From positions 42,904 through 86,820 of the forward strand of contig QHVM01000021.1 in NCBI GenBank assembly GCA_003223555.1: 43,917 nt of DNA, read 5' to 3'. A model generated the notes under the pieces. The model had not been told where the DNA came from. It was given only the letters and a program-made list of their open reading frames with translations, and did not search any database. The position numbers and the translations under genes were made by a program. Below, piece after piece: positions 5,059 through 41,705 of this stretch. Source of the DNA: Acidobacteriota bacterium. Its GTDB lineage: Bacteria > Acidobacteriota > Vicinamibacteria > Fen-336. The number at the start of each line of letters is the position of its first letter. The stretch's first letter is position 1.

Positions 5059-6423
5059 TCACTCGATGCGGTGCTTGGCAAGGTAATAGCTGAGGGCCCG
5101 CTGGCTGATGCCGAGCAGGTCCGCCGCGTCCTTCTTCACGCCCGCCGCGCGCTGGAGCGCCCGCTCGATCGTCTGCCGCTCCACCCACTCCACGTTGTGG
5201 TGGAGCTTCAGCGAAGGCAGGCCGGCCGGGACGGACTCGGTGACCCCGAGCAGCGAGATCTCGCGCCGGGTGATCACCGGCCCGGGCGAGAGCACGACCG
5301 CGCGCTCGATGGTGTTCTCCAGCTCTCGGACGTTGCCCGGCCAGTCGTATTCCCGGAAGGCTTCCAGCACGGCCTCTTCCACCCGGTCGATCCGCTTGCC
5401 ACTGCGCTGGGTGTGCTTGCCGATGAAGTGCTCGGTGAGGGCGGGGATGTCCTCGCGCCGCTCGCGCAGGGGCGGGATGGGGATGGGGATCACGCTCAGC
5501 CGATAGAACAGGTCCTCCAGGAAGCGGCCCTCGCCCACCATCCGCCGCAGGTCCCGGTTGCTGGCCGCGATCACCCGCAGGTCGACCTTCTCGGTGCGCT
5601 CGGCCCCCAGCGGCTCGAACTCGCGCTCCTGCAGCACCCGCAGCAGCTTGGCCTGCACGGTCGTGGACATGGTGCCGATCTCGTCCAGGAAGATCGTGCC
5701 GCCGTCGGCGAGCGCGAAGCGGCCCTTCTTGTTCGACGTCGCGCCCGTGAAGGCGCCCTTCACGTGCCCGAACAGCTCCGACTCGAGCAGGCTCTCGGGG
5801 ATGGCCGCGCAGTTGACCCGGATGAGGGGCATCTCCCGCTGCGCGCTGCGGTCGTGGATGGCCCGCGCCACCAGCTCCTTGCCGGTCCCGGTCTCGCCGG
5901 TGATGAGCACGGTGCTGCGGGACTGGGCGACCAGCTCCAGCTGGCGGATGACCTCCTGGATGGCGCGGCTGCGGCCCACGATGCCGTAGTGGTCGAACTC
6001 CTCCTCGCGCTCGCTGAGCAGGTAGCGGTTCTGGGTGCGCAGGCGCAGGTGCTCGAGCGCCCGGCGGGCCCCCACCAGCAGCTCCTCGACCTCGAAAGGC
6101 TTCTGCAGGTAGTCGAAGGCGCCCAGCTTCATGGCCTCGATGGCGCTCTCGACGGTGGCGTGGGCGGTCATCATGATGATCTGCGGCCGGTCGGCTTCGG
6201 GGGCGGAGGAGGCGAGCTCGCGGATGAGCTCCAGGCCCGTCTTCTCGGGCATCCGGTTGTCGACGACCAGGAGGTCGAACGACCGGCTCGCCAGCAGGCG
6301 CTGGGCCTCGCGCGCGCTGGCGGCCGCCACCACCTCGTGGCCCTCGTCGCGCAGCGCGCGGCCGAGGGCCTTGAGGATCTTCTCCTCGTCGTCCACGAGC
6401 AGGATGGAGCCGCGGGGACCCAT
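5059..6423 (-). CDS. Sigma-54-dependent response regulator (NtrC family)
   Basis: The protein has about 454 residues and three domains. The receiver domain (1-120) has the acidic pair in LLVDDEEK and the phospho-acceptor Asp in VVDNRMP near residue 55. The AAA+ ATPase has Walker A GETGTGKE and the sigma-54 contact loop GAFTGA. A C-terminal Fis-type helix-turn-helix ends near [16 protein letters not shown]. It would activate RpoN promoters after phosphorylation by the kinase encoded just upstream. The ATG at 6423 shares a base with the kinase stop; a GTG one codon earlier (6426) is also possible. The sigma-54 promoter of the copper/iron cluster lies about 100 bp past its stop, which makes that cluster the likely target. 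Confidence 0.95.
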
Positions 6424-34315: not shown

Positions 34316-35989
34316 GTGAGCCGGCTCGACTGGGTCGTCCTCGTCGCGTACCTGGTGGCGATCGTCTCCTTCGGGGTGTGGGCGGGACGGGGGAACCAGC
34401 GCATCGACGACTTCTTCCTCGCCGGGCGCCGGATGCGCTGGTGGGCGGTCGGCCTTTCGGTCATGGCCACCCAGATCAGCGCCATCACCTTCGTGGGCAC
34501 GACCGGCCAGGCCTACGCGGACGGCATGCGCTTCCTCGTGTTCTACTTCGGGCTGCCGTTCGCCATGGTGACCCTGTGCCTGACCGTGGTGCCGTTCTTC
34601 TACCGGGCGCGGGTGTTCACCGCCTACGAGTACCTCGAGAAGCGCTTCGACCTCCGGACGCGGACGCTCACGAGCCTGCTCTTCCTCTTCGGCCGCGGGC
34701 TCTCGGTGGGGGTGACCCTCTACGCGCCCTCCCTGGTGCTGTCCGTGATCCTGGGCTGGGGCGAGACCTCCACCATCCTGCTCATGGGCGGCTCCACGAT
34801 CGTCTACGTCATCTACGGCGGGAACCGGTCGGTGATCTGGACCGACGTGGTCCAGATGGCCATCATCTGGTTCGGGATCTTTCTCTGCTTCGGGATGGCG
34901 CTGAGGCAGCTGCCGGCCGGCTTCGGCCTGGGCGACGCCCTGGCCATCGCCCAGACGACCGGCCGGCTCCGCGTGATGGACTTCTCGCCCAGCCTCACCG
35001 CGCCGTACACCCTGTGGAGCGGGCTCGTCGGCGGCTTCTTCATCATGCTCGCGTACTTCGGCTGCGACCAGAGCCAGGTCCAGCGTTACCTGGCCGGGAG
35101 CAGCTTGACCCAGAGCCGGCTGTCGCTCCTCTTCAACGCGTTCCTCAAGGTGCCGATGCAGTTCCTCATCCTGCTCACCGGGGTGCTGGTGTTCGTCTTC
35201 TACCACTTCCACACCCCGCCCCTGCTGTGGAACGTCGCGGAGATGCGGAAGCTCGCCGCGGCCGCCCCCGCGGAGCTGCCAGCGGTGCAGTCCCGCTACG
35301 AGGCGGCGCTGGCGGCGCGGACGCAAGCGGCGGAAGCCTTCCGCCGCGGCGAGCGGCAGTCGGCGTCGGGCCGCTACCTCGCGGCCAACCAGGAGGTGGA
35401 GGCCGCGCGGAGGCAGGCGATCGGCCTGGTGGAGAAGCTCAACGGCGGCCAGCGCTACAACGACACCAACTACATCTTCCCGTCCTACGTCCTGGCCAAC
35501 CTGCCCCCCGGCCTGGCCGGCCTGGTCATCGCCGTCATCTTCGCCGCCGCCATGTCGACGCTGTCGGGCGAGTTCAACTCCCTCGCCACCGCCACCATGG
35601 TCGACTTCTACAAGCGCTACCTGCGGCCGGGCGGCAGCGATGCCCACGACCTGCTCGTCTCCCGGCTGTTGACCGCGGCCTGGGGATTCTTCGCCTGCCT
35701 GGTCGCCTTCCAGGCGGGGCGCTTCGGCTCCGCGATCGAGACCGTGAACCGATTCGGCTCGTACGTCTACGGCCCCATCCTGGGCATCTTCGCCCTGGCC
35801 GTGCTCGCTCCGGCCGCCTCGGCCCGGGGCGCCTTCTGGGGCGGCCTGGCCGGGGAAGCGGTCGTGTTCTGGCTGGTGTGGCGCAGCCCGGTCCACTTCC
35901 TGTGGTACACGCTCATCGGGGCCGCCGCGGTCTTCGCCATCGGGCTCGCCATCTCGGCCGTCGCGCCCTTGGAAAGGACGCCGGGGTAA
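34316..35989 (+). CDS. Sodium:solute symporter (SSS family)
   Basis: This 557-residue transporter has about 13 helices. It has the SSS pattern DDFFLAGRRMRWWAVGLSVM, MATQISAITFVGTTGQAY, YEYLEKRFDLRTR and an Ala-rich cytoplasmic or periplasmic insert (about 320-375). IFAAAMSTLSGEFNSLATATMVDFYKRY holds the sodium-site serines. It couples Na+ entry to uptake of an organic solute that cannot be named from sequence. It is preceded directly by a small subunit, and its stop overlaps the lyase start (TAATG), so a linked uptake-and-breakdown route is possible. Confidence 0.92.
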   Translation: MSRLDWVVLVAYLVAIVSFGVWAGRGNQRIDDFFLAGRRMRWWAVGLSVMATQISAITFVGTTGQAYADGMRFLVFYFGLPFAMVTLCLTVVPFFYRARVFTAYEYLEKRFDLRTRTLTSLLFLFGRGLSVGVTLYAPSLVLSVILGWGETSTILLMGGSTIVYVIYGGNRSVIWTDVVQMAIIWFGIFLCFGMALRQLPAGFGLGDALAIAQTTGRLRVMDFSPSLTAPYTLWSGLVGGFFIMLAYFGCDQSQVQRYLAGSSLTQSRLSLLFNAFLKVPMQFLILLTGVLVFVFYHFHTPPLLWNVAEMRKLAAAAPAELPAVQSRYEAALAARTQAAEAFRRGERQSASGRYLAANQEVEAARRQAIGLVEKLNGGQRYNDTNYIFPSYVLANLPPGLAGLVIAVIFAAAMSTLSGEFNSLATATMVDFYKRYLRPGGSDAHDLLVSRLLTAAWGFFACLVAFQAGRFGSAIETVNRFGSYVYGPILGIFALAVLAPAASARGAFWGGLAGEAVVFWLVWRSPVHFLWYTLIGAAAVFAIGLAISAVAPLERTPG

Positions 35990-37362
35990 TGCCGTCGACC
36001 GCGTTCGACTCGTTCTATCTCAAGGACCGCTACGGATCGGCGGCGATGCGGGCGATCTGGGAGGACCGGGCCATGATCCAGCGCTGGCTGGACGTGGAGG
36101 CCGCGCTGGCCGCGGTGGAGGCCGACCTCAAGATCGTGCCGCGCGCGGCGGCGCGGGACATCGCTCGCCGGGCGCGGGTCGAGCTGCTCGACCTTCCCGC
36201 GATGAAGCGGGACTTCGACGCGAGCTGGAACCCCGTGATGCCGCTGGTGGACGCCCTCCGGCGCGTGCTGCGTCCGGCCAGCGCGCGCTGGGTGCACTGG
36301 GGCGCCACCAGCAAGAACATCATGGACACGGCCACCGCCCTGCAGATCAAGGACAGCTACGCGGTGGTGCTGGCCGAGATCGACGCCATCGCCGAGATCC
36401 TGGCCATCCTCGCCGTCCGCCACCGCGACACGCTGATGGCCGGGCGCACCCACGGCCAGCACGCCCTGCCGATCACGTTCGGCTACAAGGTCGCGGTGTG
36501 GCTCGACGAGCTGATACGCCAGCGCGAGCGCCTGCTGGAGAGCCGGCGGCGGGTGCTGGTGGGGGAATTCGGGGGCGCGGTGGGCACGCTCGCTTCGCTC
36601 GGCCGCAAGGGCCTGCGCGTGCAGGAGAAGCTCATGCGCCGCCTGGGCCTGGGGGCGCCCCTCGTGCCGGCCAAGACGGCCGGCGACCGCTTCGCCGAGT
36701 TCTTCATCCTGCTGGCCATGCTCTCGGCGACGCTGGGCAAGATCGCCCAGAACATCTACAACCTGCAGCAGACCGACGTCGACGAGGTGACCGAGTTCGT
36801 GGAGGGCAAGGTGGGCAGCTCGGCGATGCCCCACAAGCTCAACCCCGTCGCCTCGGGCTCCGTGGTGCTGCTCGGCCGGCTGCTCCGCTCGCGCGCGGCG
36901 CCCATCCTGGATTACATCCACACGGAGTGGGAAGACGACCACCGGCAGGGTGAGACGCTGTGGTCCTTCGCTCCCGAGGCGTGCCTGCTCATCGGCTGCC
37001 AGCTCGTGCTGACCAAGCGGCTGCTGGGCAGCCTGGTCGTCAAGCCGGAGAACATGCTGCGCAACCTGGAGCGCAGCGGCGGCGTCGTCCTCTCGGAGGC
37101 GGTAATGATGGCCCTGGCCGAGAAGATCGGCCGCGACCGCGCCCACGCCCTGGTGCTCGAGATCTCGCGCGACGCGGCGGCGCGCAAGGTGTCGTTCCGG
37201 GACGCGGTCGCTGCCCACCCCGAGGTCCGGCGCCGGCTCAGCCCGCGGCGGCTGGCCGCGGCCCTGGATTACCGCAACTCGCTCGGCCTGGCCACCGAGT
37301 TCGTGGACCGGGTGGCGGCGGCCCACCAGGCCGAGCGACGGGGTCGGCGGCGCCGGCGCTGA
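35989..37362 (+). CDS. Fumarase-superfamily lyase (adenylosuccinate lyase / carboxymuconate cycloisomerase type)
   Basis: This 457-residue enzyme has the superfamily signature SSAMPHKLNPV, with the catalytic Ser and stabilising Lys. The first substrate loop reads HWGATSKNIMDTA and the second RTHGQHALPITFGYKVAVW. The GATS...DTA and ALPITFG wording is closer to carboxymuconate cycloisomerase than to standard PurB (GLTS, EPTTFG), whereas SSAMPHK is PurB-like. The substrate is therefore uncertain. It may be the cell's adenylosuccinate lyase or a catabolic lyase serving the co-transcribed symporter. The C-terminus is strongly basic. Confidence 0.85.
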   Translation: MPSTAFDSFYLKDRYGSAAMRAIWEDRAMIQRWLDVEAALAAVEADLKIVPRAAARDIARRARVELLDLPAMKRDFDASWNPVMPLVDALRRVLRPASARWVHWGATSKNIMDTATALQIKDSYAVVLAEIDAIAEILAILAVRHRDTLMAGRTHGQHALPITFGYKVAVWLDELIRQRERLLESRRRVLVGEFGGAVGTLASLGRKGLRVQEKLMRRLGLGAPLVPAKTAGDRFAEFFILLAMLSATLGKIAQNIYNLQQTDVDEVTEFVEGKVGSSAMPHKLNPVASGSVVLLGRLLRSRAAPILDYIHTEWEDDHRQGETLWSFAPEACLLIGCQLVLTKRLLGSLVVKPENMLRNLERSGGVVLSEAVMMALAEKIGRDRAHALVLEISRDAAARKVSFRDAVAAHPEVRRRLSPRRLAAALDYRNSLGLATEFVDRVAAAHQAERRGRRRRR

Positions 37363-37422: not shown

Positions 37423-38274
37423 ATGTCGAAGGCCAGACGTGATCGGGAGAATACCGGCGGCGGCGGACCGCCGGCGGGGTGGCCGCTCCCGCCCAGCTCG
37501 TCCTTCGTGCCCGGGATGATGGCCGGGGCGAGCCTGGCCGGGATCGCCGTGCTCGTCCTGCTCAGCTACATGAACTGGCAGGAAGCGCGGCAGCTCCGTC
37601 AGAGCCTCAACGACCGGCTGGCCCAGGTCGAGAGCCGGCTGACCGAGCTGTCGGCCAAGGCGGGCCAAGCGCCGGCCAGGCAGGGCCCCGATCCCAACCG
37701 TGTCTACACGGTGAAGACCGAGGGCGCGCCGGCGCGGGGGCCGGCCGGCGCCCCGGTCACGATCGTCGAGTTCTCCGACTTCCAGTGACCGTTCTGCGGG
37801 AGGGTCGGTCCGACCCTCGATCAGATCCGGAAGGTGTACGGCGACAAGGTCCGCATCGTCTGGAAGCACGACCCCCTCGCCATCCACAAGGACGCGCCGC
37901 TGGCGCACATCGCCTCCATGGCCGCCGAGCAGCAGGGAAAGTTCTGGGAGTTCCACGACAAGGTGTTCGCCAGCCAGCCCAAGATCCAGAAGGACTTCCT
38001 GCTCCAATACGCCCGCGATCTGGGGCTCGACATGAAGCGCTTCGAGCAGGATCTCTACTCGCCGCGGAGCAAGGCCCCCATCGACGCCGACATGGCCGAA
38101 GCCAAGGCCCTGGGCGTCACCGGTACGCCGGCCTTCTTCATCAACGGCCACTTCGTCTCGGGGGCCAAGCCGTTCGAGGACTTCGCGCAGTCCATCAATG
38201 CCGAGCTGACGAAGCTGAACGTGCCCGTGCCGGCCGCGGCGGCCTCGCCAACGCCGGTGAAGAAGGGCGGGTAG
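37423..38274 (+). CDS. DsbA-family selenoprotein with UPFC redox motif (TGA recoded)
   Basis: This 283-residue membrane-anchored protein reads through an in-frame TGA at 37786-37788. Residues 32-50 form a transmembrane anchor and 52-80 a short coiled coil. The thioredoxin/DsbA domain runs from about 95 to 265. The active site reads IVEFSDFQ, then the TGA-coded residue 122, then PFCGRVGPTL; homologues have CPFC here, so the TGA takes the place of the first, nucleophilic Cys. Cys125 is the partner and TGTP with cis-Pro236 follows. Homology is continuous on both sides, and a SECIS-like hairpin follows the TGA. Sec-containing DsbA-like proteins are known from bacterial selenoproteome surveys. GGGAGGG precedes the ATG. 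It is probably a periplasmic thiol oxidoreductase. Confidence 0.85.
37786..37818 (+). promoter_or_regulatory. UGA selenocysteine codon and bacterial SECIS element
   Basis: After the TGA (37786-37788) come 11 bases, a 7-bp stem GAGGGTC (37800-37806), the loop GGTCC (37807-37811) and the perfectly complementary GACCCTC (37812-37818). In the well-studied E. coli fdhF element the apical stem also begins 11 nt after UGA, and its GGUCU loop starts 18 nt after it. The loop here also starts 18 nt after the TGA. SelB would bind the GGU-containing loop. The encoded residues (GRVGPTL) do not force this pairing. Confidence 0.8.
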
Positions 38275-40375: not shown

Positions 40376-41020
40376 TCAGGGGAGCGCTGCCTCGGGGCGC
40401 GCCGAGGCGACCTGCCGGGCGCGCACCACGAAACGCTCGGGCGCGTGGCCGACGAGGTAGAACGGATAGCAGGTGACGAGGGTGAGCGTCGCGCCGCCAG
40501 CGGCGTCGAGGACGTCGGTACGATCGGGCTCGACGACCTCCGTGCTCTCCACGGTGTACTCGAACCGACCCTGCGGCGTCGTGAGCTGGACGGCGTCACC
40601 GGGCTTCACGTCCTTGAGGGGCCGGAAGAACGTGTCGCGGTGGCCGGCCATCACGACGTTGCCGGACTCGCCCGGCAGCGCAGTGCCGGGCACATGGCCC
40701 ACCGCCCGCCGCAGCGTGGCCGACGAGACGCCCTCGGCCACGATCGCCCGCAGGCCGAGGCGGGGGACCTCCAGGCGACCGACCAGCTCGTCCGCCCTTT
40801 TCGGCGCGGGGCCCAAGCCCGTTCCCGGTTCATCGCCGAGCGCCGCGCGCGGCTCGGAGGCGGAAGGACCCATGCGGATCATCCGATCCAGACGCCGCTC
40901 CTGCCACATCCCATAGCCGCGGGCTTCCAGCACGGTCGCCGCCCACGCCGCCAGCAGGAGGCCGCCGGCCAGGAGCAATAGCCGCTCGATCCAGGTCAGG
41001 ATGTGGTCGTGCCGCGTCAC
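40376..41020 (-). CDS. Class D-like sortase
   Basis: This 214-residue transpeptidase has one N-terminal transmembrane helix (LLLLAGGLLLAAWAATVL). Its sortase domain has the catalytic His in MAGHRDTFFRP, the nucleophilic Cys in TLTLVTCYPF and the Arg in APERFVVRA. The order and spacing match class D sortases, which prefer LPxTA-like signals. It lies 79 bp after a gene whose product ends in such a signal (MPATAS, helix, RRK), so enzyme and substrate are paired. Sortases in Gram-negative bacteria are unusual; the protein would act in the periplasm. Confidence 0.9.
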   Translation of the reverse strand: MTRHDHILTWIERLLLLAGGLLLAAWAATVLEARGYGMWQERRLDRMIRMGPSASEPRAALGDEPGTGLGPAPKRADELVGRLEVPRLGLRAIVAEGVSSATLRRAVGHVPGTALPGESGNVVMAGHRDTFFRPLKDVKPGDAVQLTTPQGRFEYTVESTEVVEPDRTDVLDAAGGATLTLVTCYPFYLVGHAPERFVVRARQVASARPEAALP

Positions 41021-41099: not shown

Positions 41100-41639
41100 T
41101 CAGGCGGCCTTCCGCCGCCAGATCCCGACCCCGAGGCCAGCGCTCAGGGCGAACAGGCCCGCCAGGCCCATGAGCGGCAGGGGGCTGGCGGTGGCCGGCA
41201 TACGACGCGTCCCGCGCCGCGCCTTGGTGCCCGTCTCCTCACGCATCGGCTCCTGCGCGGTGCTCGGGGTGGTGCCGGTGTTGGCGGACGGGTAGGCCGG
41301 GTTCGCGTTCGGATTCGCATTCGGATTGGCGTAAGCCGGGTTGGGGTTCGTCGCTCCCGTACCCATGTCGGTCGTGCTCACGCTCGCGGCATGGTAGTTG
41401 CCGCCGGCCAGCTCGTGGTAGTTCACGCTGACCCGGTTGCCCGCCTGGAGCGCGCTCGGCACCGTGCTCTGCGTGTCGACCTTGAAGGTCATCTGGCGGC
41501 CCTCGTCGGTCTGGATCACCAACTGGTCCGACGTCGACGAGACGACCTTCCCGGATACGGTCTTGTCGGTCTGGGCCATCGCCGGGACGGCCAGGACGAG
41601 GACCAACAGGCTCAGTACACATAGGAACGACAATTTCAT
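41100..41639 (-). CDS. Sortase-substrate surface or periplasmic protein
   Basis: This 179-residue protein has a signal peptide (LSFLCVLSLLVLVLAVPAMA). A small beta domain (about 25-90; VSGKVVSSTSDQLVIQTDEG, as in DUF5666-like proteins) and an Asn/Pro/Ala repeat linker (about 98-120) follow. The C-terminal sorting signal is MPATAS at 147-152, a hydrophobic helix (LPLMGLAGLFALSAGLGVG) and RRK. The three-part tail is the form recognised by sortases; the adjacent gene encodes one. The ATG at 41639 has GGGAGGA six bases upstream, and a sigma-54 promoter lies about 70 bases upstream. Confidence 0.85.
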   Translation of the reverse strand: MKLSFLCVLSLLVLVLAVPAMAQTDKTVSGKVVSSTSDQLVIQTDEGRQMTFKVDTQSTVPSALQAGNRVSVNYHELAGGNYHAASVSTTDMGTGATNPNPAYANPNANPNANPAYPSANTGTTPSTAQEPMREETGTKARRGTRRMPATASPLPLMGLAGLFALSAGLGVGIWRRKAA

Positions 41640-41705
41640 TGGTTCCTCCCTTCGGCGGACCGCGTTGCGCGGTCCTGCTCCCGATTTGCGGTTCAATCAG
41701 GAATC

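Follow-up and report, generated by a model that had tools for sequence, protein, structure and literature searches.

A DsbA-family gene with a predicted selenocysteine at its active site in a soil acidobacterium

Results

The locus

The window, by which we mean the whole 43,917-nucleotide stretch of DNA that was analysed, belongs to an acidobacterial MAG of 5.39 Mb (151 contigs, 98% complete). Its features of interest here, a DsbA-family gene with an in-frame TGA, the elements within that gene and the gene upstream, are collected in Table 1.

Table 1. Features of the Sec-DsbA locus, in window coordinates.
Feature	Position	Strand	Description	Basis
purB	35989..37362	+	adenylosuccinate lyase; upstream neighbour; ends in TGA used as stop	Pfam
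Sec-DsbA gene	37423..38274	+	283 aa when the TGA is decoded as Sec; membrane helix at the N terminus, then coiled-coil-like linker and DsbA/Thioredoxin_4 domain	translation, Pfam, AlphaFold2 model
Predicted membrane anchor and helix	37504..37665	+	anchor at about residues 28-50, then long leucine-heptad helix to about residue 80	direct sequence reading, model
In-frame TGA	37786..37788	+	codon 122, predicted to encode the Sec of UPFC	translation, alignment to Cys homologues, codon scan
Putative bacterial SECIS hairpin	37800..37818	+	GAGGGUCG-GUC-CGACCCUC, 8-bp form; the alternative 7-bp form has a GGUCC loop	folding, conservation, pair counts
cis-Proline loop	38116..38148	+	GVTGTPAFFIN	alignment of 35 proteins, with T235, P236 and N241 invariant

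Translation of the gene downstream of purB meets a single internal stop, a TGA lying between EFSDFQ and PFCGRVGP at the site of the first Cys in the CPFC motif of homologues. With the TGA taken as a residue, the product scores 101.5 bits against PF01323 (DSBA) and 88.5 bits against PF13462 (Thioredoxin_4), above both gathering scores (25.6 and 23.2 bits respectively), and the matches cover both sides of the TGA. A preliminary description of this DNA had read the gene as one continuous DsbA-family frame with TGA in place of the nucleophilic Cys, and had expected standard annotation to split or miss it. Both statements hold: an ordinary listing of open reading frames breaks the gene into pieces of 121 and 146 aa. 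The gene ends in TAG, and we found no consensus promoter or terminator near it. The gene order SSF-purB-SecDsbA recurs in a genome of the same genus, while no purB-DsbA synteny was found outside the genus among the relatives examined.

The AlphaFold2 model of the protein (mean pLDDT 87.3) contains a confident DsbA thioredoxin domain and a helix over residues 37-80, with low confidence before residue 40. The first 121 residues of the translation include no Cys, and thus no lipobox. Across 35 aligned proteins G106, E116, D119, the U/C-P-x-C motif and T235-P236 of the cis-proline loop are invariant or nearly so. In DsbA proteins the cis-proline loop packs against the active site. The earlier proposal of a membrane-anchored UPFC thiol oxidoreductase is a sound one, as a prediction from homology and the modelled structure.

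Elsewhere in the window, positions 40376-41020 (minus strand) encode a sortase-domain protein (PF04203), here in an acidobacterium, adjoining a gene at 41100-41696 for a small secreted protein that has a hydrophobic stretch at its C terminus.

The codon at the active site across genomes

Among homologues from 60 related genomes, the aligned residue is encoded by TGA in seven genomes (our own and the same-genus genome counted) and is Cys in the other homologues examined. The same-genus genome, Acidobacteria isolate AA35, keeps the TGA in a protein 88% identical over about 275 residues. Flags of one TGA raised for other relatives (G029, G019, G017 and others) were rejected: there the TGA is not at the active site, which reads CPFC.

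We also scanned 84,980 prokaryote genomes with one motif pattern that accepts any TRR codon (TGA, TAA, TAG or TGG), which yielded at least 120 loci and at least 125 matches. All 125 matches listed carry TGA, with TAA, TAG and TGG each at zero among them. This is not how a dead stop codon behaves, and we regard this comparison of codons as decisive for the predicted Sec at the TGA. The pairing of TGA with Cys that had been suggested for testing is what the relatives display, with no other stop in the matches listed.

In a tree built by a quick method, the Sec-DsbA of the window groups with that of AA35 and of the soil acidobacteria AA3 and AA4 (100% SH-aLRT). Sec and Cys interchange ten times on this tree by the least count, four interchanges being forced by well-supported branches. 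The scan also returned a contig (CAMBFS010000190.1) from a MAG labelled Klebsiella pneumoniae, whose Sec-DsbA groups with Candidatus Binatia; this contig is probably mislabelled or misbinned.

The SECIS hairpin

The hairpin downstream of the TGA can be drawn in two forms. The 7-bp form pairs GAGGGTC with GACCCTC (37800-37806 and 37812-37818) around a GGTCC loop (37807-37811), beginning 11 nt after the TGA with its loop 18 nt after it (18-19 nt over both forms). These coordinates agree with the perfect stem, loop and spacings first described. Adding the next G-C pair gives 8 bp and a GUC loop at -14.3 kcal/mol. The hairpin satisfies all constraints of the published bacterial SECIS model (loop of 3-9 nt, stem of 4-16 bp, a G in the first two loop bases, spacing of 16-37 nt and MFE below -7.5; PMC13188914), as had been proposed for this region. 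An Rfam gathering scan of the window gave no match, as expected, because bacterial SECIS elements are not one curated family.

Taken alone, the hairpin folds only moderately better than chance (z of about -2.2 over 30 nt and -1.24 over 61 nt). Since the latter value is too weak by itself, we tested conservation, and it is conservation across relatives, rather than the folding of a single sequence, that gives the hairpin its significance. A hairpin scoring 12 or more accompanies 81% of the 125 Sec genes listed, compared with 23% of 22 Cys homologues (Mann-Whitney p = 1e-8, which is only indicative because related sequences are not independent). Sec genes thus keep the element, and most Cys genes lack it.

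A tight constraint on codons is visible in the 29 Sec genes, among the matches listed and from several phyla, that encode RVGPTL. In these, GTC is the only codon used for the Val, GGT for the Gly and CCG for the Pro of RVGPTL, and 24 of the 29 have the same 18-mer, whereas the Pro and Cys codons next to it differ freely among the same genes. Covariation inside the hairpin is limited because the hairpin hardly varies: two RVGPTL genes have the compensatory AGAGUC/GACUCU (G-C to A-U), and one has a G-U intermediate. In other Sec branches the stem is replaced (by GAGUGCA/UGCACUC or CCAGC/GCUGG, for example), and the loop keeps almost the same position. At the site of the loop-encoded Gly of the Sec proteins, Cys homologues carry T, S, N, M, Q, R or other residues. 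The RNA element thus appears to limit the protein sequence beside the active site.

Selenocysteine-decoding machinery

The preliminary description had pointed to selA, selB, selC and selD as genes to look for in the same genome. The genome contains tRNA-Sec (72.8 bits, anticodon UCA), selB (309 bits, or 335.6 with the C-terminal match) and selD (341 bits, contig C126:2747-3703), but selA was not found in this 98% complete assembly of 151 contigs, and nor was a SepSecS-type synthase of the archaeal/eukaryal route. We rejected a weak selA match on contig C151 (23.6 bits), which is far below the cut-off and covers only 65 profile positions. Among the relatives, selA is above the cut-off in 46 of 60, the same-genus genome included, and each of the six further genomes with TGA in the DsbA gene has it. 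The same-genus contig that bears selA (C370), neighbour gene included, has no orthologous stretch in our assembly. Given a MAG in 151 contigs, the absence of selA is most likely an assembly gap, with true loss the less likely alternative.

Two further observations come from these contigs. The SelD of this genome is itself a selenoprotein, with an in-frame TGA in SCAG-U-ASKLGP at the catalytic Cys; it is a second one, independent of Sec-DsbA. On C370, stretches of about 100 bases (271-385 and 5092-5183) occur in dozens of copies over our own contigs at 85-99% identity, and are a dispersed repeat family of the genus.

Multi-Sec arrays and cyclophilin fusions

In Myxococcota we found DsbA domains joined in tandem, in proteins that carry two or three Sec. 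In one Deltaproteobacteria MAG (M3003), a single frame (L174:3523-6885) encodes five DsbA domains by Pfam, with three in-frame TGAs at active-site Cys positions in the order U, C, U, U, C. A Myxococcales MAG has the same array start (L172, from about 5772), with three TGAs before the locus ends, and two other loci (L092 and L195) carry two Sec-DsbA domains in tandem.

A different arrangement is found in Chloroflexota, where a Sec-DsbA with a UPYC motif continues into a C-terminal cyclophilin-type peptidyl-prolyl isomerase (L103:5395-6912; PF00160, 159.7 bits). Judged from sequence, the same fusion is present in seven more Chloroflexota loci (L104, L148, L155, L165, L204, L210 and L211). Such a fusion would combine disulfide exchange with proline isomerisation in a single polypeptide. 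Our search of a collection of open-access papers found no description of it, which is not proof of novelty; both the multi-Sec tandem chains and the cyclophilin fusions may be less known.

Discussion

Identity and proposed mechanism

We put the probability that the product of this gene is a DsbA/BdbD-type selenoprotein with a UPFC active site at roughly 93 per cent. In the mechanism that we propose, the hairpin just 3' of the UGA would recruit SelB with Sec-tRNA-Sec, and the UGA would be read as selenocysteine to give the UPFC active site, a step for which the evidence is comparative rather than chemical. The N-terminal helix would anchor the protein in the cytoplasmic membrane and place the thioredoxin domain in the periplasm, where Sec, as the low-pKa nucleophile of a U-C selenenylsulfide pair, would exchange disulfides with secreted proteins. 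The protein would most probably act as an oxidase and be re-oxidised by a VKOR-type partner encoded elsewhere in the genome. Sec in such a periplasmic disulfide oxidoreductase might speed exchange or resist over-oxidation.

Weighing the alternatives

The missing selA is what favours the reading of a dsbA gene in decay, with the TGA a simple nonsense mutation or an error of sequencing. However, the other genome of the genus has the same TGA, as do more than 100 genes from other phyla, with no other stop among the matches listed; the frame and active-site motifs are intact downstream of it, the hairpin is conserved, and tRNA-Sec and selB are present, so that we give decay almost no credence. Very improbable too, if a little less so, is that UGA came to be recoded with Cys or Ser after selA was lost, leaving a plain CPFC or SPFC protein. 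The lack of an orthologue in the assembly for selA and its same-genus neighbour gene would suit such a history, but the distribution of selA among relatives, the same genus included, speaks against it, as does the likelier gap in a 151-contig MAG; moreover, selD persists in this genome with its Sec codon intact, and both would decay if SelA were gone. We also considered a changed genetic code, in which UGA is a sense codon genome-wide. Genes of the window that end normally contradict this: purB stops at the TGA at 37360-37362, its expected C terminus, and the Sec-DsbA gene stops at TAG. We treat the probability of such a code as negligible.

No dsbB or VKOR is linked to the Sec-DsbA gene, so the redox partner and the direction are guesses. 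VKOR homologues occur elsewhere in the genome, one of them adjoining a Cys-type DsbA paralogue, and in GVTGTPAFFIN the cis-proline is preceded by Thr, one of the two residues (Thr or Val) expected opposite the active site in a DsbA oxidase. We lean modestly towards an oxidase with VKOR-type re-oxidation. The main alternative, which we consider unlikely without dismissing it, is a disulfide isomerase or reductase whose coiled-coil-like linker would serve oligomerisation, as in trimeric ScsC or BcfH, and whose Sec-Cys pair would be kept reduced by a reducing membrane partner. A leucine-heptad helical linker does follow the membrane helix, ScsC and BcfH are among the structural matches, and the two Cys-type DsbA paralogues of this genome could, with VKOR, already serve oxidation; against this, the closest solved structures by both sequence and fold are DsbA/TsdA of C. 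diphtheriae and BdbD.

Implications

Soil Acidobacteriota gain one well-supported selenoprotein from this locus. More than 120 Sec-DsbA genes among the matches listed come from Acidobacteriota, Rokubacteria, Chloroflexota, Myxococcota, Binatota, Nitrospirota and others, and every such gene is broken at its active site by gene callers for which UGA can only be a stop. With naturally occurring Sec/Cys pairs among close homologues, the reason for a periplasmic DsbA to use Sec could be tested. More speculatively, and at odds that we would place below even, Sec-based extracytoplasmic disulfide exchange could be widespread but overlooked in uncultured soil and subsurface bacteria, with Sec-DsbA repeatedly gained or reverted and elaborated into multi-Sec chains and cyclophilin fusions, and with the hairpin codons of the RVGPTL branch having frozen the protein sequence beside the active site.

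Comparison with known proteins

DsbA-like selenoproteins with a UxxC motif were reported in 2005 and 2008 from the Sargasso Sea and GOS surveys (PMC1088965, PMC2398784) and DsbA-like selenoproteins in bacterial genomes in 2006 (PMC1794560), and DsbA-like form 1 (PF01323, UxxC) is listed in a 2026 review table (PMC13188914). The preliminary description was thus right that Sec-containing families of this kind are established, and since the type has been known since 2005, the present gene belongs to it. It shares with DsbA-like form 1 a DsbA-family domain, Sec as the first residue of UxxC, a SECIS element just downstream and widespread Cys homologues. Compared by description, the surveys concern marine and deltaproteobacterial cases, whereas the present gene comes from a soil acidobacterium, its product has a predicted membrane anchor, and its GGUCC-loop hairpin is frozen.

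The best NCBIfam match is NF041057, the Rcas_1661 family thioredoxin-like (seleno)lipoprotein, which corresponds to the DsbG-like family of the review, has the Thioredoxin_4 fold and includes Sec forms. However, the Sec-DsbA protein scores 103.9 bits against it, below the curated cut-off of 190, and unlike that lipoprotein it has a membrane helix and neither an N-terminal Cys nor a lipobox. Its closest solved relatives are DsbA/TsdA of Corynebacterium diphtheriae (4pwo, 7unn) and BdbD of Bacillus subtilis (3eu3), by sequence (E of 1e-21 and 5e-14) and by fold; these have CxxC, whereas the present protein is predicted to have UxxC. Sec-DsbA is therefore a solid addition to a selenoprotein type already known from other bacteria.
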